Assembly (NCBI GenBank): GCA_019358945.1
Contig: JAHHIE010000002.1
Coordinates: 62,001-126,000, forward strand
Reading direction: 5' to 3'
DNA from: Stenomitos rutilans HA7619-LM2
Lineage (GTDB): Bacteria > Cyanobacteriota > Cyanobacteriia > Leptolyngbyales > Leptolyngbyaceae
Length of the DNA stretch: 64,000 bases
Part shown: positions 26,236 through 52,349 of the stretch, one piece after another
How positions within the stretch are numbered: position 1 is the stretch's first letter
How the letters are laid out: each line of letters opens with the position of its first letter
The notes under the pieces: model-generated
Databases searched by the model: none
Seen by the model: only the letters and a program-made list of their open reading frames with translations
Told to the model about the DNA's origin: nothing
Program-made: the position numbers and the translations under genes

Positions 26236-26626
26236 AATCATTGGCTCCCATTTCTTTCAACGTCACCTGGTATTTCCCGATCGTATTAAACGCAGGTGTC
26301 CCCCAGGTGCGGCACCGTCGCCAACCCATTGTGTCACCCCGATCGACATACCAAATGTTGTTAGATGCCATTGCCGCGATCGCGTTAGTCATATTGCCAA
26401 AAACAGCGATTAGCGTGTCGTCAGGAATACTGACTTGATAAGTTTCGTAGCCCTGCCCCTGAATGGTCAGTTCACTGCTAACGGGGGCATCTGGTTGGAT
26501 ACCCATCGGCGTAACCAATGGATTAGGGGTGAGTATCTTGCTATCGCCAAACCGAATCTGGGTGTTGTTGAGTCCGAGATTGGTGAAAAGGCGATCGGCT
26601 GAAGCTTTGAACAGGTTGATGTTCAT
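26225..26626 (-). CDS. Head-tail joining region protein, 133 aa
   Basis: Starts at ATG 26626 with an ATGA overlap to the giant polyvalent gene before it and overlaps the next gene by 11 bases. Mostly beta-strand (SELTIQGQGYETYQVSIPDD, GKYQVTLKEMGAND). It stands between the head-entry genes and the tail completion genes. No specific family recognised. Confidence 0.5.
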   Translation of the reverse strand: MNINLFKASADRLFTNLGLNNTQIRFGDSKILTPNPLVTPMGIQPDAPVSSELTIQGQGYETYQVSIPDDTLIAVFGNMTNAIAAMASNNIWYVDRGDTMGWRRCRTWGTPAFNTIGKYQVTLKEMGANDYGV

Positions 26627-29600
26627 ACTTTTAACGCCACTTTCAATTGATCAGGCGCGTCTGGCAACTCTTTCTTCTTGCGCCTCTTCTTGGCACTACA
26701 CTCCTGGCAGCCACAGTCGCTATCCATTTTTGTGGCTAGATAGGGGTATTGCGCTACGAGACGAGATCGGGCTGCTTGTACAACCTCGTGTGACAGCGAG
26801 TCCAGGCTCACATGTTTGTACTTGCCCTTGTCACCAAAGTCAGCAGCAGTGCGCGATCGGGCTTTAGGTGCAAGGGGTGCGGAATGAATGCCTTTTGCAG
26901 TCCTTTTTTTGGCTATCGATGGATTCTTGTCGGGATCGAGAAGTACCGTATGCACTCCATGCTGCTTAGCGTTTTGCCAATCAGCATTTTCCATTTTTTG
27001 CACCTTCCAAGAAAGATCTCTCAAAGCTTCTTGGTTAAGCCCTTTTTGCTTTTTGCGTCGATAGTCGGCAGCAGCCTCTTTTGTCACTTCAGAAAGAAAT
27101 GTAGGTGTGTGTCCGTTTGGAGCAAATCCGCCAACTGTACCGCTTGAACTGGCTGGCACAAACAACGGCACACCGTAAGGATCTCTATGTTCACCATTCA
27201 CATTTCTTACAGAGCCATAGTATGATTTGCTTGCCTGTCGTTTCAGTTGTTCTGCTGTCTCAGTAAATTCTTTAGGCACCGTTGACGGCAACCCGATCGC
27301 CTGTCTCTCCCTCCCCTCAATCTCTTTCGATGGCTGCCCCTGCTTTCCTCTAGCCGCTAGTTGGTTCACTGTTGTTTGCGCCACCGCATAAGTCATTGCC
27401 GCATTGCGGTTACTGGCGGTCTCGTTCTCTTGCAGGTTGTTCAATAATTTCTCAATTCGTTGTCTGGGTGTACCCGTTGGTCTCTGGAAAGTACTGGCTG
27501 CTGGCTCAGACAATTGCACTGTATGCGTAGGGTCAAGTTGGTGCAGTGCAGCGTGTGCTACAGCATGAATTTGAGCCGCATTTTTGATGTCAGCCTCATG
27601 GTTTTGCTGCAACTGATTCACTAGACCAGCAAGACGTTTACCGCGTCCTGATTGTGAGGTTTCAGGTGGCAAAACTTCAGGCATAATTGCTTTTGTCGGC
27701 ACAGGTATCTTCATATGCCCCATCACCGCTAAACGTGCTGCTTCTGCTTGTGGAATGACGATTGGCGCTTTGGTAGTACCAGGCACGATCGCGCCTACAG
27801 TCATGCTGGCTGGCTTCTTAGGAGCAACCTCTGTTGGCGTGTTCTTCACCATTCGATCGCCCGTCCGTTTTGCGATCGTATTCGCCGCTTTCAAGTCTCG
27901 CGTCTGCTGAATCTGCGCTGCCACACCCTGCAACTTAGCAGCATCAGGCTTATCCAATCCTTTCGAGGGGTGCTCGCCCCCTTGGCTTAGATGCTCAATC
28001 AATGCGTTGATTTTGTTGATCCTACCGTGATCAACTGCTGCCTTCTCATTTTTGTGGCAATTTCGATGCACACCCTGACAAATGCCCCCGCATTGGTAGG
28101 TGGCACTACCACATTTCAAACGCTTGCCAGTAGCGTCCAGGCGTACCGGGTTTGACACCTTAGCCTCTAGCGCCTCTGTGTGGCTATCCCACCGCACAGT
28201 AAACTGATTCGCACTCTCACTGTCGAGCTTAGCTACAGCAGGCTGATAAGTGACATTTCCGTTGGCATAAGTAAACGCGTAAGACCTGCCATCTTGGGTG
28301 CCGACAAATTCACCCGTCACCGTCTTGCCCTGGACATTAAACTTGCGAATGCGGATGGGTGCCCCGTACAGCCCTGGTGCTTGCAGTTCTTCACCAATGA
28401 GTTGAGCCAAAGTAAGGCGATCGTCTAAAGCGTCTTTTCTGCTTAATTTAGCAATCGCTGTTGCCACTTCCTGTTTAGACATCGAGAATTGACCATAACC
28501 TTGGTCAGTCATGCCCATTTTGGCATAGAAGCCTTTAGCACTATCAACTGATGACGCTTCAATACCCTTACCAAGCTTTGCAGCATGGTGTAATAGTTGA
28601 TTAAACATCTCGCTGCCAGATCCTTTAGTTGAGCCATCAGCCCCAAAATTCTGCACTGAGATCAGTGACTTACCTTCTTTGTAAGACATCGCCCCTGTAA
28701 TGTACCCGTCTTTGTTATGGCTGGTAAACAAACCGATGCGTGGGTTCTTGGCATCTTTTAGCGCTGTCAAGGTTCCTTGCTTGCCGTGTCCATTCGGATC
28801 ATTGGCTTGAGGCTTGAAACGCCCTGACTCTAATTTGCTCACTAATTGATCAATACGGCTTGTTCTGCCCTGTTGCTCTTTTTGCCCCGATGTAGAGAAA
28901 GGGTCTGCGTGCGGCTCAAGAATATGACGACTGGAAACAGCGCCAGTGGGTCTGCCTGCCTTGCAACTTCCAGGAGGAGCATAGCCTTTGCCGCAGGGTT
29001 CCCATTTAGCATCTGCATGCAATTGATCAAGTGCATCAGCGCGTTCATCCTTGTCGCTGCTTACCTGTACAGCCCAAGCGCGATCAATGCCAGCCCGTCT
29101 GACTACTTCATGAGCAAAGTGATTTCCAACAACCTTGTAAGAACCATCTGCGTTTTCATGCACAAGAATCGGTACCCAGTTCCGCCCGTTTGTTTCCAGT
29201 AACTTCCTGGCGGCAGCATCCACCTGCCCTTGAGTGCCTTTATGCTTTTTGTTGGCAGTAGGATCCGTAGCAATTTCATCGGTATAGAGGTGCTGATAGT
29301 TGCCATTGTCGCTAAAGCCAGACCCACCCTCTTTTCTAGATAGCTGGTTTTGCATTGGCTTAACATGGGCAGCATCCACCTTGTCAGGCACTTGCATCAT
29401 TTTGGCAAGTGCAATCTGCTCAGGGTTATTCGATACAATCACGCTGTAAGCTCTGCCTCCTTTGGAAGCATTAGCAGAAGCGGTAATTTTTTCGCTGATG
29501 CCACCGATCGCTTGGTACTGATCTTTCCCAGTTTCGATGACCAAAGCAGGGTTAAAATTACGTTCACCTCTATCAAATGCTGCTGTGATAACAGGATCGT

Positions 29601-30807
29601 TTTTACCTTTGGTCTTTACTTCGTCTGCGTAAAGACTGATGAGGTTACCAACATCGCTAAACCCTTTGCCAATATTGCCTAAAGTACGGGCATCTTCTTC
29701 TTTGTAGTTCTTTCTTAAAATCGCTAAGTCGTTTGTTTGTTGCGGATTTTGCTCAGTTGGTTTTGTTGCCGTTGCTTTGCTTTGTTTCTTTTTTACTTCA
29801 GGTTTCAGTGCCGATTCTCCAGCTTTTTTTAGTTCCTCTACAGTTGCCTTCTTGCCCTGTTTTTTTAACTCTGTCCGCTTTTGCTCGATTGCGGCTTCAA
29901 CTTTCGCTTTTGGCGTAGCTTGATTCACTGGCTGACTGGTTGAGGAAGACGCGGTTTTAGCACCTCCTTTCTTTGCTCTCACGCACCCAGGTCTATTACC
30001 CTCCCAACCCCGTCCGCACTTTTCAGCGTCCTCCCGTAACCGCTCGATTGCCCCACTCATGTCATAGTCAAGGTCAGCATACTTAGCGATCGCTTTTTGG
30101 TGGGCTTCAATAGTTGGCATCTGAGCATCTTGTTTGGGTTGAGTTTTGAGGTGACGCGCGATCGCCCAGCCTGCCATCGTTAGGTCAAAGAGCGTCGATC
30201 GTTCCTGCTGAGTTAGTCGGTCAGTAGTTCCAGCATCAGCATCAGCGCGGCTGACAGGCACCCTAGCAGTAACCAGTGCATGAAGGGCTTTGCCTTGTTT
30301 GGTGAGTCGTTCGGCGTATCTGTGGGCAAGGTCTGAGACTGCAACGGCTGTACTGATGCCGCCTGCTTTTCCGGCAATGATGGCTCCAAGGGCTTTGGCA
30401 TGTGCTGATCCTTCTATATGTTCCAACGCCGAATGCGCCCCTGAATGCGAACTTTTGCCGATCGCCCCTGCTGCCGCTTCAGTAATAAATTTGGCAGCAA
30501 GTTCTGTAGGGTTACGATTCTCTGGCTTGCGGGCATGGATGAGAGTAGCAGCGATCGCTTGAACTGCGGTTTCACTAATCAGATGAGCCGCGCCAGGGGG
30601 GAAACCGTGCGAAGCTGCCACTTGCGCGATCGCGCCTCCTACTGTCTTGCCAACGCCCCAGGATAATGCTGATTCCGAGACGTGTTCTGCTGCATGAGCG
30701 ACTTTAGACCGAACGCAATGCCCCTTTAGCCCTTCCCATCCCTTACCGCAGTCATCATCCAGCCTGGCTTCGACGAGGCTATTGACACGGGCAAAGGTTG
30801 TAGACAT
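26623..30807 (-). CDS. Giant polyvalent head protein with Cys motifs, ParB-like and acetyltransferase-like domains, 1394 aa
   Basis: Multi-domain protein encoded downstream of the portal. Residues 20-32 (CGKGWEGLKGHCV), 264-277 (CGRGWEGNRPGCVR), 605-616 (CGKGYAPPGSCK) and 899-918 carry related Cys motifs that may hold metal. About 505-590 reads like a ParB/sulfiredoxin-type fold (VVGNHFAHEVVRRAGIDRAW). About 645-775 resembles a GNAT acetyltransferase (GSGSEMFNQLLHHAAK, then SAKGFYAKMGM). The rest is helical, basic and Ala/Lys-rich. This matches the idea of polyvalent proteins packed into the capsid and injected with DNA. Activities are inferred from motifs. Confidence 0.65.
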   Translation of the reverse strand: MSTTFARVNSLVEARLDDDCGKGWEGLKGHCVRSKVAHAAEHVSESALSWGVGKTVGGAIAQVAASHGFPPGAAHLISETAVQAIAATLIHARKPENRNPTELAAKFITEAAAGAIGKSSHSGAHSALEHIEGSAHAKALGAIIAGKAGGISTAVAVSDLAHRYAERLTKQGKALHALVTARVPVSRADADAGTTDRLTQQERSTLFDLTMAGWAIARHLKTQPKQDAQMPTIEAHQKAIAKYADLDYDMSGAIERLREDAEKCGRGWEGNRPGCVRAKKGGAKTASSSTSQPVNQATPKAKVEAAIEQKRTELKKQGKKATVEELKKAGESALKPEVKKKQSKATATKPTEQNPQQTNDLAILRKNYKEEDARTLGNIGKGFSDVGNLISLYADEVKTKGKNDPVITAAFDRGERNFNPALVIETGKDQYQAIGGISEKITASANASKGGRAYSVIVSNNPEQIALAKMMQVPDKVDAAHVKPMQNQLSRKEGGSGFSDNGNYQHLYTDEIATDPTANKKHKGTQGQVDAAARKLLETNGRNWVPILVHENADGSYKVVGNHFAHEVVRRAGIDRAWAVQVSSDKDERADALDQLHADAKWEPCGKGYAPPGSCKAGRPTGAVSSRHILEPHADPFSTSGQKEQQGRTSRIDQLVSKLESGRFKPQANDPNGHGKQGTLTALKDAKNPRIGLFTSHNKDGYITGAMSYKEGKSLISVQNFGADGSTKGSGSEMFNQLLHHAAKLGKGIEASSVDSAKGFYAKMGMTDQGYGQFSMSKQEVATAIAKLSRKDALDDRLTLAQLIGEELQAPGLYGAPIRIRKFNVQGKTVTGEFVGTQDGRSYAFTYANGNVTYQPAVAKLDSESANQFTVRWDSHTEALEAKVSNPVRLDATGKRLKCGSATYQCGGICQGVHRNCHKNEKAAVDHGRINKINALIEHLSQGGEHPSKGLDKPDAAKLQGVAAQIQQTRDLKAANTIAKRTGDRMVKNTPTEVAPKKPASMTVGAIVPGTTKAPIVIPQAEAARLAVMGHMKIPVPTKAIMPEVLPPETSQSGRGKRLAGLVNQLQQNHEADIKNAAQIHAVAHAALHQLDPTHTVQLSEPAASTFQRPTGTPRQRIEKLLNNLQENETASNRNAAMTYAVAQTTVNQLAARGKQGQPSKEIEGRERQAIGLPSTVPKEFTETAEQLKRQASKSYYGSVRNVNGEHRDPYGVPLFVPASSSGTVGGFAPNGHTPTFLSEVTKEAAADYRRKKQKGLNQEALRDLSWKVQKMENADWQNAKQHGVHTVLLDPDKNPSIAKKRTAKGIHSAPLAPKARSRTAADFGDKGKYKHVSLDSLSHEVVQAARSRLVAQYPYLATKMDSDCGCQECSAKKRRKKKELPDAPDQLKVALKV

Positions 30808-30844: not shown

Positions 30845-31687
30845 TCAAAGTAAAGATTCTGTTTTCTCGGCAAAACGGCATGGTCTTGTTAGCGTAGCTT
30901 CTATACTCCACCCCATTTTTAATCTCGCCCCAATGGTGCCACTTGTTAGCCCTGTATCTCTTGCCCAAGCAGCAATTGAGAGCATTTTTCCGTTATAAGA
31001 AAGTATCCGCTTTGCTCCGTTACGGGTTGTCAGCGCTTTCTCTACAGTCCATCCAAATTTGTCAATGCGGTTAGCAATTACAGAACCTGCTATACCCAGT
31101 CTTTCGGCCCACTCTGCCAAAGTCAGTCGTTCGCCGTTAAATTCTATAAACCGATTTCTTCTAGTATTTCTGGCTTGCTGCTTTTTTGTTGCCCAGTAGC
31201 AATTCTCAGGGCAGTAGTCGCCATCATTATCTCTACGATCGATAGAATGCTCTGAAGATGGTTTTAAACCCATGTCAGCAATGAAGTTCTCAAACTTACG
31301 CCAGCGATCGCAAACTTTTATTCCTCTACCGCCGTAGTCCTCAAACCTTGTGTCTTTAGGGCTATCGCATCGACGGATCATCTGACCCCATATTCTATAT
31401 TCTGGAGTTTTTCCGCCAACTGTTGCGCCATGACTTAAGTTATGCCTTGTTACAGGAGGCTTATTAATTGTCCGACAAAGCTCTGATTTGTAACATCCGC
31501 AAGATATGCCCTTGCCAGTGATTACTATCTGCGCGTTAGTAATCTTTTCTTTGCCGCAATCGCATTTGAACAGCCATAAATGCTTGTAAATCCATCCGCT
31601 TACAGGATGTTTGCACTTCTCAACAAGCCTTACAGCCTTTAATCGTCCATATTTTTGACCAGGACGCAAATCATGTATACTTGGCAT
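30845..31687 (-). CDS. HNH homing endonuclease with two C-terminal HTH repeats, 280 aa
   Basis: Central HNH-type motif: GRGIKVCDRW, then HSIDRRDNDGDYCPENC and YWATKKQQARNTRR. An N-terminal zinc-like module (CDCGKEK, ISCGCYKSE) and two C-terminal repeats (NGERLTLAEWAERLGI and NGKMLSIAAWARDTGL) of NUMOD-type DNA-binding helices surround it. Start is ATG 31687 with GGAGG five bases upstream. It is a free-standing homing endonuclease placed between portal and polyvalent genes and is probably mobile. Confidence 0.88.
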   Translation of the reverse strand: MPSIHDLRPGQKYGRLKAVRLVEKCKHPVSGWIYKHLWLFKCDCGKEKITNAQIVITGKGISCGCYKSELCRTINKPPVTRHNLSHGATVGGKTPEYRIWGQMIRRCDSPKDTRFEDYGGRGIKVCDRWRKFENFIADMGLKPSSEHSIDRRDNDGDYCPENCYWATKKQQARNTRRNRFIEFNGERLTLAEWAERLGIAGSVIANRIDKFGWTVEKALTTRNGAKRILSYNGKMLSIAAWARDTGLTSGTIGARLKMGWSIEATLTRPCRFAEKTESLL

Positions 31688-31836
31688 TGCAGCCTCCAAC
31701 TAGGTTGTCATCCCCCGGCTCTGACTCCCCAGAAAGAGCGCGGGGCTTTTACTTATTCTAGCATTTCGCCACTCAACACCAAGCAAGATGCACAAAGCGG
31801 TAAAAAGATCAACGCGATCGCTTGTTCTAGGGCAAA

Positions 31837-32369: not shown

Positions 32370-32404
32370 CGAAACCCCTGCCGAATAGCAGGGGTTTCGT
32401 TTTC
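32370..32404 (+). terminator. Intrinsic terminator
   Basis: CGAAACCCCTGC and GCAGGGGTTTCG form a perfect 12-bp stem with a 6-base loop, followed by TTTTCT. It ends the plus-strand coiled-coil gene and may also stop minus-strand transcripts coming from the portal region. Confidence 0.88.
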
Positions 32405-32628
32405 TATAGATTAGATTTTTTCTCTACAAGTCCCGTTTTGGATTGAAACAAAGACTGAATATTACCTGTACTGTTAACAACCCTTTTCAAAAATTCTTCA
32501 TAACAGTCTGAATTTGATAGCTTTGGTTGTGGGTGTCGAATATTGCCTGTCTTGTTTATGATTGTATTCTTAACAACTTCAATACTGCCAATTTTTTTGT
32601 CGTCAAGCAAGTAAATAAATTTAGTCAT
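32404..32628 (-). CDS. Small protein coupled to portal-kinase gene, 74 aa
   Basis: Start overlaps the portal gene stop (TAATG). Begins MTKFIYLLDDKKIGSIEVV, then a basic, Asn/Ser-rich stretch. The opening strand-turn-strand loosely resembles the first strands of HipA/HipS-like N-terminal subdomains, and it follows a kinase-like domain, so a regulatory partner of that kinase is conceivable. Weak evidence; otherwise unknown. Confidence 0.45.
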   Translation of the reverse strand: MTKFIYLLDDKKIGSIEVVKNTIINKTGNIRHPQPKLSNSDCYEEFLKRVVNSTGNIQSLFQSKTGLVEKKSNL

Positions 32629-35600
32629 TAAAAGCCTGCCTTTACTAGCTTTTCTAGCAATTCTTTAGCGTACCCGAAGCTGTCTCTAATAGAATTCTGC
32701 CTTTCTGGAGTAAACTCTTGTCTCTGTTTTTCATCCGAAGAAGGTATAAGTTTGTCTTGTGATGCTATAGCACTCTTGGCAAATTCGGCTTTATTCATAT
32801 CAGCAAGCCCGCGCAGTGTTTCTACAAAAAGGTGTAAATTTTCTTTCTCACTATGTGTCAACTTTTTGTTTGACAAAACAGAATCAAAACTTTTTTCAAT
32901 AGCCTCACGTTCGTAATCTCGATAGGGCGAGTAAGGAGACTTGTAGAAAGCACCTTCATTATCAATAGCGTGATAGGAATCTGTTTTCTGATCGTAAAAA
33001 ATATTTCCATCATGACGATCGCCATTAAACGAAAAAACATCAAAAGCGTGTATCCTGGCTAAATCTGGATGGCTGATAGCATTTTTAAGCGCATCCTTGC
33101 TAGAAAGCATAAGACTATCGGGTTGTGTAAATTTCTGAACCTCCCCCAGCGACACTCCCGACACAAATTGGCTCAATATTCTAGGGTAGCGATCGTCCTT
33201 GTCTGCTATTTCTGGATCTTCTATTTTGATCTTTGCTGTATTAATTCCGGCTGCTTGCATTACCTTTTGTGCAATCATCTCTGATGTGTTGTCATAAGGA
33301 ATATAACCAGTCATAGCGCTGGCAACTTTTGCAACATACTTCTGACCTCGATCGTCCTCAAAAATACTGTGTTTATTTTCGCCGATTGTGCCTAATTGTT
33401 TAAGCTCTTCAAAATTAACCAAATCTTTTTTAGTTAGAGCTAAGTCAGCAGTTCTGTTTTTTGGTTCTTCTGTGGCTTTTGCTTTCGTTTTTGCTTTTGC
33501 CTGCCGCTTCGGTTTCTTCTCTGCCGTTGGTTTTTCAGCCACAGTCGCGGGTGTTTTAGGCTTAACAGATCGCGTCTTCTTCTCAGCTTTTTCGGTCTTA
33601 GCCTTGGCAGATGCTTTCTCAGCCTTGGCTGAAGTTACAGCGGGCTTATCCTCACCTCTAGCAGCAGCGATCGCGCTCCTCGCCTCCACCTTCACCACAG
33701 CCCGTGCTGCTGCTCGTAGCTCTTTGGCAGTCGGTTCCTTGCCTGCTTTTTTGGCTTCACGGCGCGTCTTGTCGATCGCCTTCTGAATCTTGCCGCGCAG
33801 GTCTTTCTCAATAGACTCAGGGTCAGCCCCGGTCTTTTTGGCGATCGCGGTAGCAATAGCAGAGGATGTCTTGCTGGTCTGATATTTGCCGCCTTTAGTC
33901 CCACCCTTAGCTTTAGTAGCAGTCTTTGGGGTAGCAGGAGTGGCAGCGCCTTCACCAACGAACTCTGCGATCGCAACATTAGACTTGCCAAAGGTGTTAA
34001 ACTTCTTGCCTTTCTCCAGCCCTTCATTCTTGGCTTTGGCTTTGGCTAAAAGCTCCTGACGAGTGGCATCCAGACGCACATCAGAATCTTGTTTAGCAAA
34101 TTTGCGGGGGTCGTAAGCCCAATTTCTGAGGCTAATTAGGCGTTTAGTCATCCACACGGGCGCGTCGGCACTAACAGGCTCACCCTTACCTGCACCACGC
34201 ATGCGAGCAATAAACGACACCGTTCTGAGCGCTTGTGTGGCATCTGCCTGCGTCCACTGTGCTTTAGGCTTCTGCAACAGTCTCAGGTTGCGTTGGATAG
34301 GTGCGCGATCGACACTTGCCAGTTTGCTCCAACGTGTTTTAGACCATGCCAGAAACTCACTGGCACTCATGTTCACAGCGCCGTGGTATTTGGCATAGGC
34401 GGTGTCGATTGGTGAGTCAACAGCATCAAGCCTGTACCGCTCTAAGTCAGCTAAACTTATCGCCTTAATGCCACCGAACATATCGGCAGGCATCACCTTG
34501 AGGAACGTCTCGCGAGCAGTATCCAGGCTGTCAAAGCCCAGCATGTATTTGTGCTCATCAAATTGCCCATCAATGAGTTGAGTGACTTCAAAGACCCGAT
34601 TGCTTTCCAGGTCGGTGCCGACATAGCAATCACACGCCATGCCATCCGCACCGCGAGTCTTTTGAATATGCCCGTATGCCACAGGCAACACCTTCCCATG
34701 CCGGATATCGAAGGGCTGATATTGCAGCCCTAGTTTCAAGCCCTGCCAATCGATAATGCGTTTGACAGGAGTGGCATCATCCAAATGAAATGAGTCAGCA
34801 GAGTCGAGAAGAGCGCGATCGCTCAAAATATCGTCCGCGATCGACTGGTCTTGCTGCGCCTGTTCATCTTGCCCCAGTGCCTGATCTTCATCCGCAGTCG
34901 CTCCGTCCGCAGGCTGATCGCCACCTTGTAAAGCACTTACGTCTGGCTCAGTTGGTTGTGGTTTGGCTTCTTCCTTGATGTCACGTTGCAATGCCTCAGC
35001 GTATGGCTTGGGCAGGGTGATGGCACTGCTGTACTCTTTCTGTCCATAGGTAGCCGCGATCGCCACCTTGCCAAAGCGTGGGTCAACACCATTTAAATCC
35101 TGAATCAACTGTGCCCGCTTTAGTTCTAAGTCAGCCTGTTCCGCTGGCGACGGTGGATAAGGAGGTAACCATTCCCACCCCAAACCATCAGGCAAGTCTC
35201 CATTTGTGGGTCCTGACTTGCAAAGGCAGACTAACTGCTGCAAGTCTTGAATGCTGTCGTCATATTTATCAACCTGGAACTGCGTTGTTGTCTCGTTCCA
35301 CAGTTGGTTCTCAGTGGTCGATTGCCCGGTCGAGTTTAAGCCACTGGCAAACTCCCCAAAGGCGATCGCGGGTGGCAGGTCAATGCTCGCCAAAAGATTT
35401 TCCTTGACGCGATCATGCAAGTCACTCATACCTGTCACTTGCCGCGTCCAGTTGTCCAACGCCTCGTTATCCATATCAATCACCTGAGTCCGGTAATTGC
35501 TACGACTGATCTGATCAACCTGCAAGCGAGTCAGCAGTTCGGCTTTGTACTCGTCACCGCGATCTGCTAAGTTCTGCGCCAGGTCTTTCACCTTACGGAC

Positions 35601-36365
35601 AGGCACATCAAAATCGGTGAGCATACGCCCCGCCGCTTGTACAGCAGGTTGATACATGAACCACGCATCACGCACCAATTCAAGAATCGAATCATCGCAG
35701 CCATTATTGGCAATGAGGTCGTAGTCGTCAAGAATCGGCACACCCCGAAACCAATGCACACGACTCCTGTGAATGCGTTGCCCGTTGGCATAACCTTTCA
35801 TGTTGTAAGTATTCAACACAATGTAGTGCTCCGGCAACCCACTACTCAGTGTGGAAATGTCTGGTCTAAGCGCATGACGTGAGAGCAGCGCCATTTTATT
35901 GATGCGCTTGATGTGTTCGCGATCTAGCGGCTCATCCAGTTTGCGGCCATCATCAACATCGAGCACTAAACCACTATTGCCAGTTTGTAGAGCAAGCTCA
36001 CCCGCGATCTGATACCCCTTTTTGGTTCTGCCAAGCCGTTGCAAGGGTGTGACAACTGGAATATTGTTGACAGCATCGGCGATCGACTGGAGCAGCTTAG
36101 CGTCACCGTTTGCCAGTGTCGGTCTACCCCACCGCCAAGTGGCAGCTTTGGGCAAGTTTGTAGTCAGCTTTTTGAGCAGCCCTGACTGACGGACTAGCGC
36201 TGATTGCTCTTGCCTTGAAAGACGACTCAGACCAGGTTGAATGTAGGTATGCTGCGTTGGATCGACATACGGGTTCCCCATGCCTGTGTAGGGATTCTGC
36301 AAACCGCTGAAGACTTGCAACAGGGAATCTAAACGGATATCGAACGTTGGAGTTTCAGAAGACAT
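32628..36365 (-). CDS. Portal protein fused to pyrophosphatase-like and HipA/PI-kinase-like domains, 1245 aa
   Basis: Residues 1-460 look like a DUF1073-type portal (helical, with QVIDMDNEALDNW and a helix-rich clip region). About 532-645 matches the inorganic-pyrophosphatase-like domain of polyvalent proteins (IIDWQGLKLGLQYQPFDI, then RGADGMACDCYVGTD, then FDEHKYMLGFDS). After a helical domain and a long Ala/Lys-rich linker, residues about 985-1200 form a kinase-like domain: YVAKV with Lys1013, NGDRHDGNIF (1114-1123) as catalytic loop, and AIDNEGAF as metal-binding loop. A portal carrying cargo domains would place them inside the capsid. Portal call firm; enzymatic roles inferred. Confidence 0.78.
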   Translation of the reverse strand: MSSETPTFDIRLDSLLQVFSGLQNPYTGMGNPYVDPTQHTYIQPGLSRLSRQEQSALVRQSGLLKKLTTNLPKAATWRWGRPTLANGDAKLLQSIADAVNNIPVVTPLQRLGRTKKGYQIAGELALQTGNSGLVLDVDDGRKLDEPLDREHIKRINKMALLSRHALRPDISTLSSGLPEHYIVLNTYNMKGYANGQRIHRSRVHWFRGVPILDDYDLIANNGCDDSILELVRDAWFMYQPAVQAAGRMLTDFDVPVRKVKDLAQNLADRGDEYKAELLTRLQVDQISRSNYRTQVIDMDNEALDNWTRQVTGMSDLHDRVKENLLASIDLPPAIAFGEFASGLNSTGQSTTENQLWNETTTQFQVDKYDDSIQDLQQLVCLCKSGPTNGDLPDGLGWEWLPPYPPSPAEQADLELKRAQLIQDLNGVDPRFGKVAIAATYGQKEYSSAITLPKPYAEALQRDIKEEAKPQPTEPDVSALQGGDQPADGATADEDQALGQDEQAQQDQSIADDILSDRALLDSADSFHLDDATPVKRIIDWQGLKLGLQYQPFDIRHGKVLPVAYGHIQKTRGADGMACDCYVGTDLESNRVFEVTQLIDGQFDEHKYMLGFDSLDTARETFLKVMPADMFGGIKAISLADLERYRLDAVDSPIDTAYAKYHGAVNMSASEFLAWSKTRWSKLASVDRAPIQRNLRLLQKPKAQWTQADATQALRTVSFIARMRGAGKGEPVSADAPVWMTKRLISLRNWAYDPRKFAKQDSDVRLDATRQELLAKAKAKNEGLEKGKKFNTFGKSNVAIAEFVGEGAATPATPKTATKAKGGTKGGKYQTSKTSSAIATAIAKKTGADPESIEKDLRGKIQKAIDKTRREAKKAGKEPTAKELRAAARAVVKVEARSAIAAARGEDKPAVTSAKAEKASAKAKTEKAEKKTRSVKPKTPATVAEKPTAEKKPKRQAKAKTKAKATEEPKNRTADLALTKKDLVNFEELKQLGTIGENKHSIFEDDRGQKYVAKVASAMTGYIPYDNTSEMIAQKVMQAAGINTAKIKIEDPEIADKDDRYPRILSQFVSGVSLGEVQKFTQPDSLMLSSKDALKNAISHPDLARIHAFDVFSFNGDRHDGNIFYDQKTDSYHAIDNEGAFYKSPYSPYRDYEREAIEKSFDSVLSNKKLTHSEKENLHLFVETLRGLADMNKAEFAKSAIASQDKLIPSSDEKQRQEFTPERQNSIRDSFGYAKELLEKLVKAGF

Positions 36366-36433: not shown

Positions 36434-38014
36434 CTAGACGAGCGACTTCATCCAATTAACGTTAGATGGCATTTGATCAAGACTAGCAAAGGCGATCGCC
36501 GCCGCCATTACCGCATCATCATGCATCCCTGATTCAGCTTGACGCAACCGCGAAGCCCCTTTGATAGTTTCAATAAAATGCGGCATCTCTTGAGCAATCG
36601 CGCTGTCTGCCGGGAACTGTAACTGTTCGCGCTCTAAAAGCAAAATGAGGCGATCGGTGTTGATCAACTTGGATGTATTAGTGGTGCAGACACCTTGCCA
36701 GTTCCAGGCCGCTTTGAGCTGACTCAGATCTTCTAGGATGAGTGTACCGCCTGAGTTGGTTTCAACACTGACCACGCCCGGTTTATATTGTTCTAGCAGC
36801 AAAAGCGATTGAGAAATACTGTAATCTTTAGTCTTGCGACTGGCACCATATTCTGCTGCCAATGAGTATGGCGTGCGTGTCACATCCCATACTTGACAAC
36901 GGAAAAAGTCGGCACCGCCAAAGTTGGGATCAATCCCTGCCAGATAACGTCGTCCTTTCTGCGGTGCTTGCAAGCGCCCAATCGTAGCTTTCTCAATCAA
37001 CTCAAGGTTGAAAACATTCTTCTGCCCTTCGCTGAACTGAAGCTCGTATTCTTGATCCCAAGCTTGTGTAGTTAACTGGCGTTCAAGGCGCGTTTTTTCT
37101 GCCCACTCAGGATCAGCACCATACAGCGGATGCGATCGCCAATGCAAGAAAACTTTGGCCCATTTCTTGTGCTCCCACGAGCGGGTATTAGGATTTTGCC
37201 CCCGCTGAAACGGCACAATGTTGTTGGCAGGCTGACGAATAGCTGTCAAGGTTTCATTGACGCGTTTGGCTTCGCCGACACCAGCCATAATCAAACGGTA
37301 GAATAGCCCTGTACGTCCGTTCGGCGTACTGTTAAAAATCACCTTGCCGCGATCGCCCAACATTGATAGTGTCGGCATGGCTGCCTGGTATACCCCGTCA
37401 ATACCGTCGATAAACGCAGCTTCGTCAAAGAGAATGACCGAAACAGATGGGATACCACGAGCAGCGCGGGCGGTAACAGGTAGGAAATGAATGCGTCCCA
37501 GACCCTTAAAGGCAAGTTTGGTTGCACTTTCGCTAGTTAGTACTGGGCAAAGCGAACCAAGAGAGATTGCCATGTCTCGAATCCGTCTGCCCAATTCAGA
37601 CGAATCACCTTGAGTCTTGCTGAACACTACGGCACTAAACCCTGGTTCTGTGAGCGCTCGCATCAACAAATAGCAGCAGATGGTTTCTGAAACACCCATC
37701 TGCCGTGACTTGCAAATGACTGTGTTCTGACTTTGCTCGATTGATTGGATCAGGTCAATCTGGTAGTCGTATGGTGCAAACGGTTTGACCGTACCAGAGG
37801 TCTGAATCTGGGTCATGGGCGCAAAGATTGCCCACAGAGACACGAACGCCCCTACCGCAATCAGCTTTTGTGCCGTTTCCCTTAAATGCCTTGCAACAGT
37901 CGATTCTTTCGTCGATGCTGTAACGCTATCATCAATCAGCTTTTGCGTGGTTGACTTAAGCCTGCGATCGCTATGCTTCGGTAGTAGCGCTAGGCTCATC
38001 ACCGTCACCTTCAT
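36434..38014 (-). CDS. terL: Terminase large subunit, 526 aa
   Basis: ATPase motifs: Walker A-like CKSRQMGVSET (residues 101-111) and Walker B VILFDEAAF (193-201), followed by the coupling motif FNSTPNG. Nuclease acidic residues appear as AGIDPNFGGAD, VSVETNSGG and HDDAVMAAA. Length is normal. The annotated ATG (38014) overlaps the small-subunit gene by 44 bases; ATG 37999 is an alternative. It packages DNA into proheads together with the portal encoded downstream. Confidence 0.93.
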   Translation of the reverse strand: MKVTVMSLALLPKHSDRRLKSTTQKLIDDSVTASTKESTVARHLRETAQKLIAVGAFVSLWAIFAPMTQIQTSGTVKPFAPYDYQIDLIQSIEQSQNTVICKSRQMGVSETICCYLLMRALTEPGFSAVVFSKTQGDSSELGRRIRDMAISLGSLCPVLTSESATKLAFKGLGRIHFLPVTARAARGIPSVSVILFDEAAFIDGIDGVYQAAMPTLSMLGDRGKVIFNSTPNGRTGLFYRLIMAGVGEAKRVNETLTAIRQPANNIVPFQRGQNPNTRSWEHKKWAKVFLHWRSHPLYGADPEWAEKTRLERQLTTQAWDQEYELQFSEGQKNVFNLELIEKATIGRLQAPQKGRRYLAGIDPNFGGADFFRCQVWDVTRTPYSLAAEYGASRKTKDYSISQSLLLLEQYKPGVVSVETNSGGTLILEDLSQLKAAWNWQGVCTTNTSKLINTDRLILLLEREQLQFPADSAIAQEMPHFIETIKGASRLRQAESGMHDDAVMAAAIAFASLDQMPSNVNWMKSLV

Positions 38015-38507: not shown

Positions 38508-38818
38508 TAGCCAACTAAATCCTTAAAGTCACAACCAAACACCTTTAACCACTCTCTCAACTCTGGCGGATCGACTTTGCGCCCCGCATTCATGATTGCG
38601 TAAACGGACGATCGCGGTAGCCCAATCATGTCAGCAAGCTGACTAATGTTGTAAGGCGATCGCTCAACTTGCTGCCTAAATTTACTAGCAAAAAGCTGCT
38701 GAGGCGTAACAGGTGTAGTATTTTCGGACACTTCCGCGTCGCTCAATCTTAGCAAGGGTAAAACAAGATATTGACCTAATGCCCTTATTATGCCTTCGGC
38801 TACCGCCATTCGGTTCAA
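38507..38818 (-). CDS. XRE-type HTH protein upstream of terminase, up to 103 aa
   Basis: Helix-turn-helix: SKFRQQVERSPYNISQLADM then LPRSSVYAIMNAGRKV, followed by ELREWLKVFGCDFKDL. The frame begins at 38818, inside the start of the divergent protease-like gene (38790), so one of the two starts may be wrong; a later TTG or GTG codon near 38750 would remove the overlap. It heads the packaging operon and could control packaging and head genes from the shared region. Confidence 0.65.
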   Translation of the reverse strand: MNRMAVAEGIIRALGQYLVLPLLRLSDAEVSENTTPVTPQQLFASKFRQQVERSPYNISQLADMIGLPRSSVYAIMNAGRKVDPPELREWLKVFGCDFKDLVG

Positions 38819-40223
38819 CCAATTAGCGACAATCGATCACTTCGACTCGAAAGACGGGGTGATGACGGTCACGGCGATCGCGCGCACGCCGGGGATATTG
38901 ACCTATCGTAATGCCGATGGATCTACTCGTCGTGAGTTGGTATCGCGTGAGTTTCTGCGACGAACAGATAGCAATGGTGTACCTTTAGTTGCTCAACTAG
39001 CAAACTTACCCGTAACAAATGAACATCCACCTTGCTTGCTGCGAAATGATGCTGACCTATTGAAAAAGTATCAAGTAGGTAGAACTCAGAACAAGGTGCA
39101 TGTCTTTGACGACGGACGTGTCCAAGTTACTTTTGACGTTTTCGATCCAGAGACACAAGACGATATTCGCCTTGGGCGTAAAGACGGCGTGAGTGTCGGT
39201 TACGAAACAGCCGTAAAACATGATGCTGGCGAATGGCATGGACAGCATTTTGATGCTATGCAAGACGAGCCGATTGACAAAGACCACATGGCAGTCTGCG
39301 TGAATAACAGAGCGATTGGCGCAAAGATTAAAGCTTTCAAATTTGACTCCGCTGACACGACTGATATTGCGTGGCAAGTAGACAGCGTGGAACCAGAACA
39401 ACCTTTAACAGCTACTCGCAAGGATGCGCCCATGCCTCAAATGTTCCAGATCGAACTGGCAACACCCGACGGTAAAGCGCCGTTTATGGTGCCTCGTGAA
39501 CTGTACATGGAAATTAAGCGACTCGGTTTAGATGATTGTGGCTGCCATGTTGACGCAGCAGAAATGGAATTAGTCTTTGATGCTGACGATGCTGAATATC
39601 GCGTTGATAGTGACGATACACTGTGGCGCTTTGATAAGGCGACAGGCAAAGGAAAGCAATGTCCAGGCGGATATTACATTCCACAAAATCGAAACTGCAA
39701 CCCCAAAACTCATGCGAAACGGGAAGGGCAAAAGTTAAATAAATTAGCTCAGAAAAAATCAACTTTTGACCCAGACTACGAAAAAGTAGCAGGCAAAGCA
39801 ATTGATAAAAGCATGATGGCAGCAAAAGGTAGCCTTGCTGCTAGGGTTTCTGAAAACGTTCTTTCTAGTGCCTACTCTCGCGTTTCTTCGCCCTATACAG
39901 AAGGTTTAAGAAAAGAAGAAGCTGATCATCTCGCAGCAAAGACTCTGGCAAGGCGAATGCGGCGAGGCAAATCACAAAATACAACGGGCGAAATTGCCGA
40001 AGAGGCGAAGAGCAGAGAGCAAATAAGATCGCATTTCAAAAACGAAGGCATGGAACAAAGTTTGGCTTCTGACAAATCACGCAAAAAGCTAGCTCAGAAA
40101 AAGCGTATAGCCGAAAAAAGAAGACTTCAATCACAAGGTTTACCAAATGAAGGCGGCGCTTTTAGAGCAAAAGCAGCGTCTGGAAAAGGTAAACGAGCTT
40201 CAACTTACAGGATGCCAGCATGA
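38790..40223 (+). CDS. DUF2213-type prohead protease/scaffold-like protein with Cys insertion, 477 aa
   Basis: The N-terminal 200 residues fit DUF2213: TVTAIARTPGILTYRNADGS with RRELVS, then LANLPVTNEHPP, then DDIRLGRKDGVSVGYE and a conserved CVNNRAIGAK. These proteins act in prohead maturation and are often considered proteases. Beyond residue 280 the family layout is replaced by KGKQCPGGYYIPQNRNC and a basic helical region, recalling the Cys motifs of the polyvalent protein. It opens the plus-strand head block. Confidence 0.72.
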   Translation: MPSATAIRFNQLATIDHFDSKDGVMTVTAIARTPGILTYRNADGSTRRELVSREFLRRTDSNGVPLVAQLANLPVTNEHPPCLLRNDADLLKKYQVGRTQNKVHVFDDGRVQVTFDVFDPETQDDIRLGRKDGVSVGYETAVKHDAGEWHGQHFDAMQDEPIDKDHMAVCVNNRAIGAKIKAFKFDSADTTDIAWQVDSVEPEQPLTATRKDAPMPQMFQIELATPDGKAPFMVPRELYMEIKRLGLDDCGCHVDAAEMELVFDADDAEYRVDSDDTLWRFDKATGKGKQCPGGYYIPQNRNCNPKTHAKREGQKLNKLAQKKSTFDPDYEKVAGKAIDKSMMAAKGSLAARVSENVLSSAYSRVSSPYTEGLRKEEADHLAAKTLARRMRRGKSQNTTGEIAEEAKSREQIRSHFKNEGMEQSLASDKSRKKLAQKKRIAEKRRLQSQGLPNEGGAFRAKAASGKGKRASTYRMPA

Positions 40224-41949: not shown

Positions 41950-42954
41950 ATGACCGCAGCGATTCTTGATAGACCGCCAGTTGCTAGTTTTGGGCTGCGA
42001 CTGGACACTAAAGAAAATATTCAACGCACCGCTATCGCGGCTGCAAGTGTTTCTCACTTAGACGCTGGCGAAGGTTTGTTCTTTGCCCGTCAGTTGGAGT
42101 ATATCGTCCCCCAACTGTATCAGGTGAAATACGCCGAACAACGCGCACGGGTACATTTTCCGGTTTCGTTTGAGGGTGGAAACGGCATCAAAACCATTAC
42201 CTACCGCGCTATAGATCGGCGTGGCAAAGCCAAAATTGTCACCAACTGGAGTACCGACTTTCCGCGTGTAAACGTGCTGGCAAGAGAAGTCTCTAACAAA
42301 GTAGTCTCTTTAGGTGACTCCTACGGTTACGACTTTCAGGAGATTCGTTCCGCCGCACAAGCCAATACACCGCTTGAACAGCTAGAAGCGAACGCGGCTC
42401 AAATGGCAATCACTGAGCTTGAAAACTCGCTGGCTTATTTTGGCGATGCCAATGCAAATGTTTATGGCGCTTTCAACAATCCATCAGTACCAATCACTTA
42501 CGCTGCCTATCCGCTAGCACTAGGTGGAACGCTTGCTGTCACGGTTGATCAAGTGGTCAGTGTTTTTAATACTGCCATCAATGGTGTCCTAGTCACGTCG
42601 CGTGGTGTGGAAAGGGTCAACATGATTCTTGTTCCATTAAAAGTCTGGACGTTTCTGTCAGTCACGCGACTTGGTAGTTACAACGACAGGACGTTAATGG
42701 AGTATCTGGAAAAAGTCTTTCCAGGTGTTGTTTTTGACTGGTGTAACGAATGCTCTGGGGCTGGCCCTAACGGGCAAGACATTATGTTTTCTTACGTGCG
42801 TGATGACATGCACTGCAACTTGTTAGTGCCTAGCGACTTTGAACAACTGCCCGTATTTTCCGATGGTGCCACTTTCTCGGTGAAGTGCCATGAACGTTTT
42901 GCTGGGGTGCGCTTACCTTACCCTGCCTCCTGTTTGCTCACCATTCTTCAATAG
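41950..42954 (+). CDS. Major capsid protein, DUF2184 type, 334 aa
   Basis: Signature stretches of DUF2184 capsids: FFARQLEYIVPQLYQVKYAE, then KTITYRAIDRRGKAKIV, then SLGDSYGYDFQEIRSAA and ENSLAYFGDANANVYG. The start at ATG 41950 is preceded by AGGAGG at ideal spacing, the strongest ribosome site seen here, as expected for the most abundant virion protein. Length normal for the family. Confidence 0.85.
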   Translation: MTAAILDRPPVASFGLRLDTKENIQRTAIAAASVSHLDAGEGLFFARQLEYIVPQLYQVKYAEQRARVHFPVSFEGGNGIKTITYRAIDRRGKAKIVTNWSTDFPRVNVLAREVSNKVVSLGDSYGYDFQEIRSAAQANTPLEQLEANAAQMAITELENSLAYFGDANANVYGAFNNPSVPITYAAYPLALGGTLAVTVDQVVSVFNTAINGVLVTSRGVERVNMILVPLKVWTFLSVTRLGSYNDRTLMEYLEKVFPGVVFDWCNECSGAGPNGQDIMFSYVRDDMHCNLLVPSDFEQLPVFSDGATFSVKCHERFAGVRLPYPASCLLTILQ

Positions 42955-48267: not shown

Positions 48268-49596
48268 ATGATATTGGGATACGCTCGCGAATCGACGCTT
48301 AAAGCGGAGCAAGATCAAGCTCTAGCTTGGCAAATACAGCGGCTACAGCGGTATGGCTGCGATCGCATCCTTACCGATCGTATGAGTGGAGCCAGCAAAA
48401 AGCGACCTGGCTACAAAGAACTACTAGCACTAATCGATTCAGACAACGTTACAGAGGTGGTCGTTTGCTCGGTTACCAGGCTAGGGCGATCAACTCGTCA
48501 AATGGTAGATGCGATCGATCTCTTTGCTGAGAAGAAAGTTAAATTTACTTCACTTGACGGCAAAATTGACATTGACACAGCATCAGGCAGGGCAAACGTA
48601 CAGATGCAAGCTGTTTTTGCACAGCTAGAGCGCGAGTTAATCCAAGAAAGGATCAACGCGGGCTACGACGGCATCCGAGCAAATAGAATGCCGATTCACG
48701 CCCCCTTTGGCTACAGAATCATTGACAAGCGGTTAGAAATCGATGTAGACGTGGAAACCATTGCACGGTGGATACGGCAATCAGTCATTGATGTTGGCCT
48801 GATCAAAACGACTCAAGCCATAAACCTCAATCACAAAGATTTGACTAAGATCCCACGATCGCCTGGCGGCATCAAGACCTGGCTGCAATGCGAGACTATC
48901 TACGGCAACCTTTGGTACGACCGTCACAATCGACGGGGCAAAACAAAAATTTACTACAACAACCATCCTGCCCTTTTCACTCAGCAAGAGCGTTTAGAAG
49001 TTGAAGAGTCTTTAAGCTTTCGGCAAAAACATCATGGTTTCAAGTCTGATCCAGTGCGGTTTCCCTTAACTGGCTTAATCTATTGTGCTGAGTGTGGCAG
49101 CAGTATGTCTGTCTCCTATAAGCACGATCGGGTTAACCCCATAGTTTATTACCGTTGCTATAAAGGAGTGCGGCGATCGTGCCCTAACAATAAGTACATG
49201 AATACTGACAACATTCAAAAAGCAATCATTATCGCTTTAGTAGACAGATCTGAAACCATTGCTGCACGAGCCATTCAAGCAGAACAAAAAGTAGCTGAAA
49301 ACCCTGGGCTTTTGGAGCTTAGAAAACAATTGATTGCTTTAGTAAAGCTGCCTACAAACTTTCATATCGAGGCCGCGATCGCAGGTATTCAATCCGATAT
49401 AGCTGAAATCGAAGTTGCTGCGTCTAAACAAGAAATTACGCTACAGCCGGATAGAGAGAAAGCATTAAAAGCATGTTCTAATCCAACTTTCTGGATTGAG
49501 CTAAAACCAGAAGACAAGCATTCAATTTACCGACTACTTGTGAAGCGAGTGGTTTGCCGAAGGAACAGCATCGAAACTGTTGAGCTTTGGGTCTAG
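48268..49596 (+). CDS. Large serine integrase, 442 aa
   Basis: N-terminal resolvase-type catalytic domain with YARES (Ser9), CSVTRLGRSTRQMVD and ERELIQERINAG. Then a recombinase domain (APFGYRIIDKRLEID, TIYGNLWYDRHNRRG), a zinc ribbon (CAECGSSMS, CYKGVRRSC) and a coiled-coil end. It resembles serine recombinases that excise elements in cyanobacteria (XisF-like). A complete gene of this kind supports a temperate lifestyle with integration at a specific site. Confidence 0.9.
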   Translation: MILGYARESTLKAEQDQALAWQIQRLQRYGCDRILTDRMSGASKKRPGYKELLALIDSDNVTEVVVCSVTRLGRSTRQMVDAIDLFAEKKVKFTSLDGKIDIDTASGRANVQMQAVFAQLERELIQERINAGYDGIRANRMPIHAPFGYRIIDKRLEIDVDVETIARWIRQSVIDVGLIKTTQAINLNHKDLTKIPRSPGGIKTWLQCETIYGNLWYDRHNRRGKTKIYYNNHPALFTQQERLEVEESLSFRQKHHGFKSDPVRFPLTGLIYCAECGSSMSVSYKHDRVNPIVYYRCYKGVRRSCPNNKYMNTDNIQKAIIIALVDRSETIAARAIQAEQKVAENPGLLELRKQLIALVKLPTNFHIEAAIAGIQSDIAEIEVAASKQEITLQPDREKALKACSNPTFWIELKPEDKHSIYRLLVKRVVCRRNSIETVELWV

Positions 49597-49926: not shown

Positions 49927-50191
49927 TGGTGCGATCGTCTTCCTTAAATTCAAAACCTAGCCAATCCAAATCTGTGCGTTCAATTGTCCAAATGAGGCTA
50001 CCTTCTACTGGCTTAAAACCCTTTTCATCAAACTCTTTGTTTAAGAGATCGAGGCTTGTTCTTTGCTGTAGGCCAAGAATAGAGATTGCCATTAACGGTG
50101 GTAGTGCTGGATAGTTGTAATGCTGCCAGTAGCGCACATAATAACTGTTAGCCAAAAGCCGTACAATGGTGGTGAACTCTTTTAATGTCAT
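49919..50191 (-). CDS. Small early protein, 90 aa
   Basis: Begins MTLKEFTTIVRLLANSYYVR; helical N-terminus, then VEGSLIWTIERTDLDWLGF, and ends EDDRTND within the junction to the next gene. It follows a junction containing AATCGCAC before its ATG. No family recognised. Confidence 0.6.
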   Translation of the reverse strand: MTLKEFTTIVRLLANSYYVRYWQHYNYPALPPLMAISILGLQQRTSLDLLNKEFDEKGFKPVEGSLIWTIERTDLDWLGFEFKEDDRTND

Positions 50192-50445
50192 GTGCGATTG
50201 GTTCCATAAATGAACGCTCCAAGCTCATTGGTGTCATTGTCGTCACCGCCTGAGATTATTGGCTCGTCCCAAACAGGATCATCATCAAGGCGGACGCAGG
50301 TGATGACTTCGGCCAAATTCAGCAGGGCTTTAACTAACGACTGACCGTCAGCGCTAATAGAACTACCATTTGGAACATCGTTTTCAACGCGGAGAATGAC
50401 CCTGCCATTTGCTTCCCATACTTGGAGCTTGATGTTTTTAATCAT
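50188..50445 (-). CDS. Small beta-rich early protein, 85 aa
   Basis: ATG 50445 is preceded by GGAGG and the nine-base HIP1-containing spacer GCGATCGCA, so it is preferred over 50478. Sequence reads IKNIKLQVWEANGRVILRV and then an acidic C-terminus (DDDPVWDEPIISGGDDND). No family recognised. Confidence 0.6.
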   Translation of the reverse strand: MIKNIKLQVWEANGRVILRVENDVPNGSSISADGQSLVKALLNLAEVITCVRLDDDPVWDEPIISGGDDNDTNELGAFIYGTNRT

Positions 50446-50776
50446 TGCGATCGCCCTCCATGCCTTCAAGCCGTTCAATCAAAGCAATCAGTCTGTTTTC
50501 GACAGGGACCATTGTTTCTTTGACAATGGTTTCGATGACGTCAGAATGATCGACCTCAAAAACATCAGAGTCATCATCACAATCAGTGTCTTCTATCTCG
50601 CCGAACACAACTTCCCCAAGATTGTTTGTAGCTCGTTCTAAATCTTGCAGGCACTGGACAAAAGAAGAGATTGTGCTTGCGCTAGCGTTGGCTTCAACAA
50701 GGGGCGCTAGGCGCGATTGGATAAAGCTTTCTACTTCACAAATTAGGCTCAGAATCTTTTCGTTATCTCGGTTCAT
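50438..50776 (-). CDS. Helical early protein, 112 aa
   Basis: GAGGAAAGCGA precedes the ATG at 50776. Two coiled-coil helices (LICEVESFIQSRLAPLVEAN, MVPVENRLIALIERLEGME) flank an acidic centre (EIEDTDCDDDSD). Probably a dimeric accessory protein. Overlaps the next gene by 8 bases. Confidence 0.6.
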   Translation of the reverse strand: MNRDNEKILSLICEVESFIQSRLAPLVEANASASTISSFVQCLQDLERATNNLGEVVFGEIEDTDCDDDSDVFEVDHSDVIETIVKETMVPVENRLIALIERLEGMEGDRND

Positions 50777-52049: not shown

Positions 52050-52061
52050 TTGCCGCACTCC

Positions 52062-52277: not shown

Positions 52278-52349
52278 AGTGATCTTGCTCCAAAACTGCT
52301 TGAATAATAATCTTTGGTCAGTTTTTCGGTTAGCTTGCACTTCAGATCC

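Follow-up and report, generated by a model that had tools for sequence, protein, structure and literature searches.

A prophage portal protein with a pyrophosphatase domain and a predicted atypical kinase in Stenomitos rutilans, and a possible route for loading and freeing effectors

Known portal fusions and the portal gene of the Stenomitos prophage

Portal proteins of phages have been found fused to InPase (BcepF1), 2H or PBECR domains in the context of head genes, and injection of these polyvalent proteins has been predicted (PMC5512222). We analyzed a 64,000-nucleotide stretch of the Stenomitos rutilans HA7619-LM2 genome (contig JAHHIE010000002.1, positions 62,001 to 126,000; hereafter the window) and focused on a portal gene at positions 32628..36365 of the minus strand, a single stop-free frame of 1245 amino acids (aa), in which a portal part, an InPase domain, an unnamed domain (X), a basic module and a kinase-like domain follow one another in this order. 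The comparisons with published work made below refer to the consulted parts of the cited sources. The window protein resembles the polyvalent portals of PMC5512222 in the portal-InPase fusion and the head-gene context, but differs from those presented there in possessing an atypical kinase, a common module and junctions marked by a sequence motif. The kinases treated in the same source belong to the Ser/Thr/Tyr group, occur mainly in (pro)phages of Verrucomicrobia-Chlamydia and Bacteroidetes and, in the sections consulted, do not feature as portal fusions.

Fusions of portal or MuF proteins to ADP-ribosyltransferase (ART) and Nudix domains have also been published, with packaging being expected (PMC9503650). 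These are effector enzymes on head proteins, as is the case here, but the consulted sections present neither a kinase fusion nor processing sites. Gratiaviridae gut phages encode a HipA-family kinase between the portal and major capsid genes (PMC8008677); that kinase is a separate protein, in contrast to the window kinase, which lies in frame with the portal. In giant phages such as SPN3US, the prohead protease processes the portal as well as other head proteins, and the portals bear long N-terminal propeptides (PMC5694885). The two systems are alike in the portal being a (here proposed) protease substrate and in the motif-defined sites of head proteins, albeit SPN3US has an N-terminal propeptide and an A-X-E site, whereas C-terminal domains and a proposed [RH]xD[ASD] site are concerned here. 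In the largely open-access literature searched, we found neither a portal-kinase fusion nor a portal whose effector domains are set apart by predicted head-protease sites. Phages presumably inject host-modifying enzymes, and a portal polyprotein with marked junctions, if true, would provide a concrete mechanism for loading such enzymes in a fixed number and releasing them from the capsid. The cleavage motif, if true, would offer a route to predicting injected effectors.

A preliminary description, made from the sequence alone, had proposed a portal-like N-terminal part, a pyrophosphatase-type domain near residues 532-645 and a polyvalent protein, all of which were borne out; it named neither the strand nor domain X, the module, the break in composition near residue 931-955 or the candidate processing motif. 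Phage_portal_3 (PF06381) matched residues 55-422 (E 7.7e-32; 110.8 bits against a cut-off of 33.8) and phrog_146 residues 11-508 (E 4e-46), while the adjoining gene for the terminase large subunit is in the position expected for a portal. The curated profile, together with the terminase and head-gene neighborhood, assigns the portal part to the HI1409/Phage_portal_3 type; the equivalog threshold of NCBIfam TIGR01555 was missed (59.2 versus 196.25 needed). The match to InPase (PF18823) at residues 538-644 scored 69.8 bits against a cut-off of 26.8. With several effector-type domains called by Pfam and PHROG on a single phage protein in a head-gene context, the product conforms to the polyvalent proteins of Iyer 2017 and agrees with those published. 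A split of the gene by a stop or frameshift, named in the same description as refuting, was not seen: the frame occurs twice in the genome with 100% identity and is free of internal stops in both prophage copies. Domain X received no match from Pfam, and its relatives were small frames of G040 (126 aa) and G008 (117 aa, with one internal stop), showing 35-36% identity (E 2.4e-4 and 3.5e-4, respectively; handles such as G040 and L122 are our own labels for genomes and loci). Parts of the 1245-aa protein were matched in 7 of 97 whole related genomes, including its own. No close relative with the same portal-kinase fusion was found among the searched relatives, of which the C-termini differ, and exact peptide patterns retrieved no whole-protein relative from GTDB contigs or IMG/VR.

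Candidate head-protease sites and the fate of the fused domains

We give about an even chance to the reading that the gene encodes a portal polyprotein, processed by a protease, that loads and frees effectors, and that its kinase was acquired recently. A broader version, in which one class of portals serves as a polyprotein chassis with kinase, ART, GNAT and InPase cassettes placed behind [RH]xD[ASD] sites, the ring metering about 12 copies and the protease freeing them, is plausible but, in our judgment, somewhat short of an even chance. In the proposed mechanism, the portal part would assemble normally and bring the C-terminal chain into the prohead, which would set a fixed dose of about 12 copies per head. 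The adjacent head maturation protease would then cut the [RH][LIVMT]D[ASD] sites, so that a mature portal would remain and InPase, X and the module-kinase would be released as separate pieces amid the DNA, on which the basic module may keep the kinase. The freed pieces would exit the head together with the genome. Once inside the next cell, the kinase would act by phosphorylating a target of the host, likely a protein, and InPase would clear pyrophosphate or a nucleotide signal. As to its origin, the kinase would have been gained recently at an exchangeable end of the gene. As a kinase bound to the ring could hardly leave the head, the candidate cleavage sites would remove this difficulty.

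The motif was spotted as RLDA-like words during the comparison of the junctions, and counted in a loose form ([RHK][ILVMTAS]D[ASD]) and a strict form ([RH][LIVMT]D[ASD]) in 48 hand-picked open reading frames (ORFs) of the window, other small or overlapping ORFs being excluded. Strict sites amounted to 15 in the 3735 aa of five head proteins (portal, 4; the 1394-aa polyvalent-type protein, 2; protease, 3; scaffold-like protein, 5; major capsid protein, 1, namely HLDA at residue 36) whereas the 43 other ORFs, 13778 aa in total, contained 2 (Fisher 7e-9). Thirteen ORFs that had first been omitted (116-3866, 50188-52340, 55781-56149 and 63529-63981) contained a single strict site in 1714 aa. Loose sites likewise exceeded the expectation from shuffles in the scaffold-like protein (8 versus 0.63), the 1394-aa protein (8 versus 1.28), the portal (5 versus 1.64, p 0.03) and the protease (3 versus 0.69, p 0.04), and the major capsid protein had 1 versus 0.14 (p 0.13). 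Four of the five permuted control motifs were not enriched in the head set (sites in head versus other proteins: 1/3 with E for D, 1/2 with N for D, 1/2 with an acidic first residue and 0/2 with a hydrophobic last residue).

The strict sites of the window portal start at residues 11, 527, 645 and 764, which lie near the N-terminus and at the portal/InPase, InPase/X and X/module junctions, and one loose site (KTDS at 1127) falls within the kinase. Cuts after Asp would give pieces of residues 14-529 (a 57-kDa portal), 530-647, 648-766 and 767-1245; the last, the predicted module-kinase piece cut within 764-767, would comprise 479 aa with a mass of 52.5 kDa and an isoelectric point of 9.6. Across 14 portals, the portal part (set as 400 residues) contained no strict site in 5600 aa, versus 15 sites in the 7318 aa outside it (p 2e-4). 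This set excludes L123, of which the contig ends within the portal, L131, whose 483-aa ORF spans no more than a portal, and L096, a Mu-type portal with InPase in which the junction lacks a strict site but residue 62 has one. In 9 of the 14 (the window, L122, L124, L125, L126, L128, L129, L130 and L037), a strict site stands between the portal part and the next recognized domain. The best contrast among them is the sister phage described below (L122), in which the site precedes the module, not InPase. PaV-LD, which had not been used for defining the motif, is the sole independent positive, with 6 strict sites in 1486 aa versus 4 in 11286 aa (p 3e-4); 5 are in its DUF2213 protease and 1 in its major capsid protein, with none in the portal. 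We propose that [RH][LIVMT]D[ASD] may represent the site of the head protease.

Several points weigh against processing, or against the reading as a whole. The motif was noticed in these very head proteins and the head set was likewise defined post hoc; weak enrichment was also seen for the reversed control motif (4 versus 2, p 0.02). No strict junction site was found in L127, L095, PaV-LD, CL131 or S-CBS4: variants occur in L095 (RADD), PaV-LD (QMDS) and L127 (KADA), the only candidate in the CL131 portal is RADA at 503, well upstream of InPase, and the S-CBS4 portal has none. CL131 contained 1 strict site in 8745 aa, with none in the portal, in a count made without an identified protease. 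S-CBS4 has a DUF2213 protease too, but protease and portal were both devoid of strict sites, the only one in 8704 aa of that stretch being in the tape measure protein. Many of the portal-InPase junctions are homologous and hence not independent of one another. In addition, no relative was found to share the kinase, so that selection on it was not measurable, and two AlphaFold models of the kinase part were of low confidence (mean pLDDT 43.1 and 46.5).

The S-CBS4 case, a protease of the same type with the motif absent, also favors the alternative that the portal is left uncut, with full-length chains staying in the ring and InPase and the kinase acting in assembly or in the producing host instead of the next host; the domains would then be held inside the head, or an excess would be free in the late-infected cell. 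A single unbroken frame fits this alternative, as does the result that neither the module nor the kinase part was found to contain an internal start accompanied by a ribosome-binding-like sequence. The Gratiaviridae kinase, which is placed late, has been suggested to act in the producing cell, according to the parts of that article consulted (PMC8008677). On the other hand, the motif stands at three successive junctions of the window portal while sparing the portal part of all 14 portals, and other phages encode colinear, separate module proteins. We regard an uncut portal as unlikely, and prefer the processed polyprotein. Separate translation of the kinase was rejected on the same lack of a detected internal start, the sole ribosome-binding-like start being at residue 562 inside InPase. 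Codon-usage likelihood was set aside as too weak, as a wrong frame scored higher for the module and linker.

Two observations on the motif concern other proteins. In PaV-LD, two proteins of 808 and 769 aa (L132, 23059-25485 and 27278-29587) both bear the motif at residue 82 (RTDS and RIDS), which perhaps marks the end of an N-terminal propeptide. A Cys-containing word resembling CGKGW-G-KPGC-RAKKG recurs, by eye, in the window (26623-30807), L118, L034 and L095, often after an RLDA-like word, and may be a tag or a small metal site of polyvalent proteins and fused portals.

The module, the predicted kinase and the exchangeable C-terminus

The module stretch of the window had no Pfam match of its own, but the same module forms the N-terminus of separate proteins in G016 and G033. 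Those of G016 have a gene for the large subunit of terminase as their neighbor (Terminase_6N E 7e-15); one has a weak match to DUF3626 (E 8e-4, below the cut-off), and another contains HEFGH, which we read as metallopeptidase-like. In the free-standing module proteins of other phages, the Met start is at the equivalent of about residue 764-767. The module query matched 3 of 291 genomes, including its own, and nothing in the phage collection. Binding to or retention on DNA by the module is suggested by its basic composition and its likeness to Rho_N. As a side observation, three terminase-adjacent genes of G016 (L039, 6003-10367) have Rho_N-like starts (E 8e-7, 6e-5 and 0.03; one match is above the cut-off) with different C-termini and, as judged from these domain matches, look like a set of effector cassettes. 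A nearby 546-aa ORF, first taken as a portal, received no match from Pfam, and L119-L121, which matched only a short Rho_N-like stretch, were set aside.

The C-terminal domain is likely an atypical kinase of the HipA/PI3-4K/FAM20-like kind, as predicted by profiles and motifs. It matched phrog_3162 over residues 1005-1168 (E 5.7e-7), and the matches to HipA_2 (PF20613; E 0.007, 16.1 bits against a cut-off of 27) and to PI3_PI4_kinase of Pfam (E 0.061) were below threshold. The peptides YVAKV, NGDRHDGNIF and AIDNEGAF, from which a kinase-like domain had been proposed in the preliminary description, are all present, and the active-site residues are intact (K1013, DRHDGN at 1116-1121 and D1135). 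In A8, an alignment of the window sequence and nine relatives (L107 as well as L106 and L108, both included in another alignment, A3, were excluded), all 10 sequences agree in the catalytic columns D, R, H, G, N and D; the pairing of Lys 1013 in YVAKV with the Lys in FKP of the relatives is a reading by position. Against solved structures, the A8 profile matched FAM20A (E 2.6e-5), PI4K2A (6.9e-4) and CtkA (0.03), while a search of PDB with the single kinase sequence returned none at E 10. Structure prediction lent the kinase identity weak support. The second of the low-confidence models has, in our own reading, a kinase-like order of strands and helices, and the 50 VIA-align rows shown were all kinases, led by CtkA (Z 6.5, root-mean-square deviation 5.6, 170 residues aligned) and followed by actin-fragmin kinase and PI3K (6.0 each), but Z values below 8 are weak for a model of such low confidence, and Foldseek returned nothing at E 0.001.

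Related kinases are encoded in cyanobacterial genomes. phrog_3162 was found in 40 of 291 (its own included), mostly in frames of approximately 230-330 aa, one of which is in the chromosome of the host itself. The A8 profile matched 10 of the 291 and, besides the window, frames of 669-1079 aa. In 8 of these nine other genomes, an HE(L/A)(T/A)H stretch resembling eCIS_core/DUF4157 lies upstream of the kinase (by pattern or eye; G098 is without it), and in all nine the kinase-bearing proteins are without a portal, judged by eye. Proteins of the eCIS_core/DUF4157 type with a C-terminal atypical kinase were noted in L088, L089, L101, L102, L138, L141, L142, L143 and L144 (8 of 291 genomes), and Pfam confirmed eCIS_core in one of them (L102, a G022 protein). 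The kinases of L102 and L101 are related to that of the window, with DRHxGN and GIDND loops and the top scores against the kinase profile, of which they are themselves rows, but ride on an eCIS_core-type N-terminus instead of a portal. The portal fusion suggests that phages use kinases of the type carried by contractile-injection-system-type proteins. The kinase domain alone had no match at E 0.01 among 50,697 phage records and none in IMG/VR, and among the 291 genomes it matched its own only. Thus, the earlier remark that portal-kinase fusions are unusual fits both the phage records and the portal-free kinases of the nine genomes. This kinase family was found in two other groups of phage contigs, namely L099/L100 (616-617 aa; the PI3_PI4_kinase cut-off is passed in L099) and L137 (at least 1596 aa, as the locus ends there), both of which have NGDRHDGN. 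Three adjacent large phage ORFs in L099 (2687-8117) and L100, one of them kinase-bearing, have a CPxG...FTD...C word in common by eye, possibly a packaging tag.

The portal is retained among relatives while the domains that follow differ. A sister phage (IMG/VR contig IMGVR_UViG_2910170622; L118/L122) has a head protease 74% identical over 327 aa and a scaffold-like protein 39% identical over 241 aa, and the gene after its portal is 67% identical over 212 aa to the 1394-aa polyvalent-type protein of the window. Its portal gene of 1424 aa is 41% identical in the portal (517 columns) and 58% in the module (204 columns), but two ART domains occupy the place of the kinase (ADPrib_exo_Tox 1.3e-12 and ART 4.6e-12, two stretches each, both models above the Pfam cut-offs), and no InPase was found in it. 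Other portals end in InPase alone (G008 twice, G033, L128 and L130), in GNAT plus InPase (G258 and L095), or in MuF plus DUF3626 (G006; DUF3626 above the cut-off). In the L124 portal, InPase is followed by the beginning of a stretch that, by eye, looks like the MuF region of G006 (the contig ends there), and the L127 portal is without InPase. A conserved N-terminal part with exchanged C-terminal effectors corresponds to the pattern of polymorphic toxins, in a small sample. As DUF3626 occurs both on the G006 portal and, below the cut-off, on the separate G016 module protein, effectors are apparently exchanged between these two chassis. Apart from this, some ORFs at 119-3866 of the window are 81-92% identical (others, 49-69%) to ORFs of the G006 contig near prophage head genes, far above the 29% identity between the two portals; judged from these identities, this is a recent exchange between the window phage and the G006 phage.

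The base composition breaks within the window gene. The GC content at third codon positions (GC3) of the portal part is 0.55; it drops to 0.45 in the first linker, returns to 0.57 in InPase and measures 0.52 over X plus the module, before falling to 0.31 (second linker) and 0.34 (kinase). Among 219 segments of 260 codons each, taken from 46 other genes, the lowest value was 0.35, above that of the kinase (0.338), and the best change point is residue 955, with a log-likelihood gain of 21.1 versus a maximum of 9.1 in 300 shuffles. The kinase and the overlapping 74-aa ORF make up one AT-rich block, which suggests that both were acquired recently. This block with its sharp edge, and the absence of the same fusion from the relatives found, would also suit a kinase that is a recent in-frame passenger without lasting use, tolerated through a cut or a flexible linker. 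Nevertheless, no active-site residue is lost, kinases of this family occur in large proteins of two further groups of phage contigs (L099/L100 and L137), and the sister phage puts ART domains in the same slot; we consider a passenger improbable, and an effector gained by the processed portal polyprotein the better account.

The 74-aa ORF is a candidate immunity gene. It had no Pfam match at E 1 and no resemblance to a HipB-like DNA-binding partner was detected; searches of 57 other genomes (15 with matches at E <= 1, best 0.055) and of phages (3 records at E 0.1) gave nothing above chance. Its end lies, by eye, just upstream of a hairpin-like sequence. That the kinase and this partner form a toxin-antitoxin or superinfection-exclusion unit on the portal messenger is very unlikely: the TAATG overlap of stop and start, the shared AT-rich composition and the toxicity of HipA kinases (stated in abstracts) are in its favor, but the kinase has no detected start of its own, the 74-aa product has no Pfam match or convincing relative, and late expression would be expected from the head-gene context.

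Feature coordinates, neighboring genes and the prophage

The features of the portal gene and of the surrounding head genes are listed in Table 1.

Table 1. Coordinates (window positions) of the features of the portal gene and its neighbors.
Feature	Position	Strand	Basis or remark
Second polyvalent-type protein, 1394 aa	26623..30807	-	Profile matches (Pfam, PHROG) and motif count
74-aa ORF	32404..32628	-	ATG overlaps kinase stop (TAATG); GC3 0.31
Predicted kinase domain, residues 986-1245	32631..33410	-	phrog_3162; invariant catalytic columns; GC3 0.34
AT-rich, Lys-rich linker, residues 931-985	33411..33575	-	GC3 0.31; left edge of foreign block
Rho_N/SAP-like plus helical Lys/Ala-rich module, residues 767-905	33651..34067	-	Sister portal 58%; G033 and G016 proteins
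Candidate site RLDA, residues 764-767, directly before module	34065..34076	-	Motif scan
Domain X, residues 651-760, unnamed	34086..34415	-	Weak matches in small frames of 2 relatives
Candidate site RLDA, residues 645-648, InPase/X	34422..34433	-	Motif scan
InPase domain, residues 538-644	34434..34754	-	PF18823, E 2.8e-19
Candidate site HLDD, residues 527-530, portal/InPase	34776..34787	-	Motif scan
Portal part, residues 1-508	34842..36365	-	PF06381, PHROG 146 and identity to sister portal
Terminase large subunit	36434..38014	-	phrog_2 E 9e-39; adjoins portal gene
Head maturation protease (DUF2213)	38790..40223	+	PF09979 E 3.5e-15; phrog_530 E 8e-22
Scaffold-like acidic protein, 285 aa	40220..41077	+	Putative role, from position and composition; no Pfam match
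Major head protein	41950..42954	+	phrog_264 E 6.5e-69

Downstream of the portal unit, the ORF at 30845-31699 is of the HNH endonuclease type (phrog_374 E 6e-66) with a GC3 of 0.37. The window is within contig C70 of a 7.28-Mb genome, in which the prophage (G000:C70:8024-212436) occurs twice, as exact head-to-tail repeats of 102,201 bases each; an 11-base core, CATGAAGTGAT, stands at each of their three borders (window 48225). Either this is a tandem double lysogen or the duplication is an artefact of assembly. A serine recombinase is encoded at the prophage junction (48268-49596). When the chromosomal flanks were joined, a 258-aa ORF, endonuclease III-like by eye, was restored, which indicates that the prophage insertion interrupts this gene.

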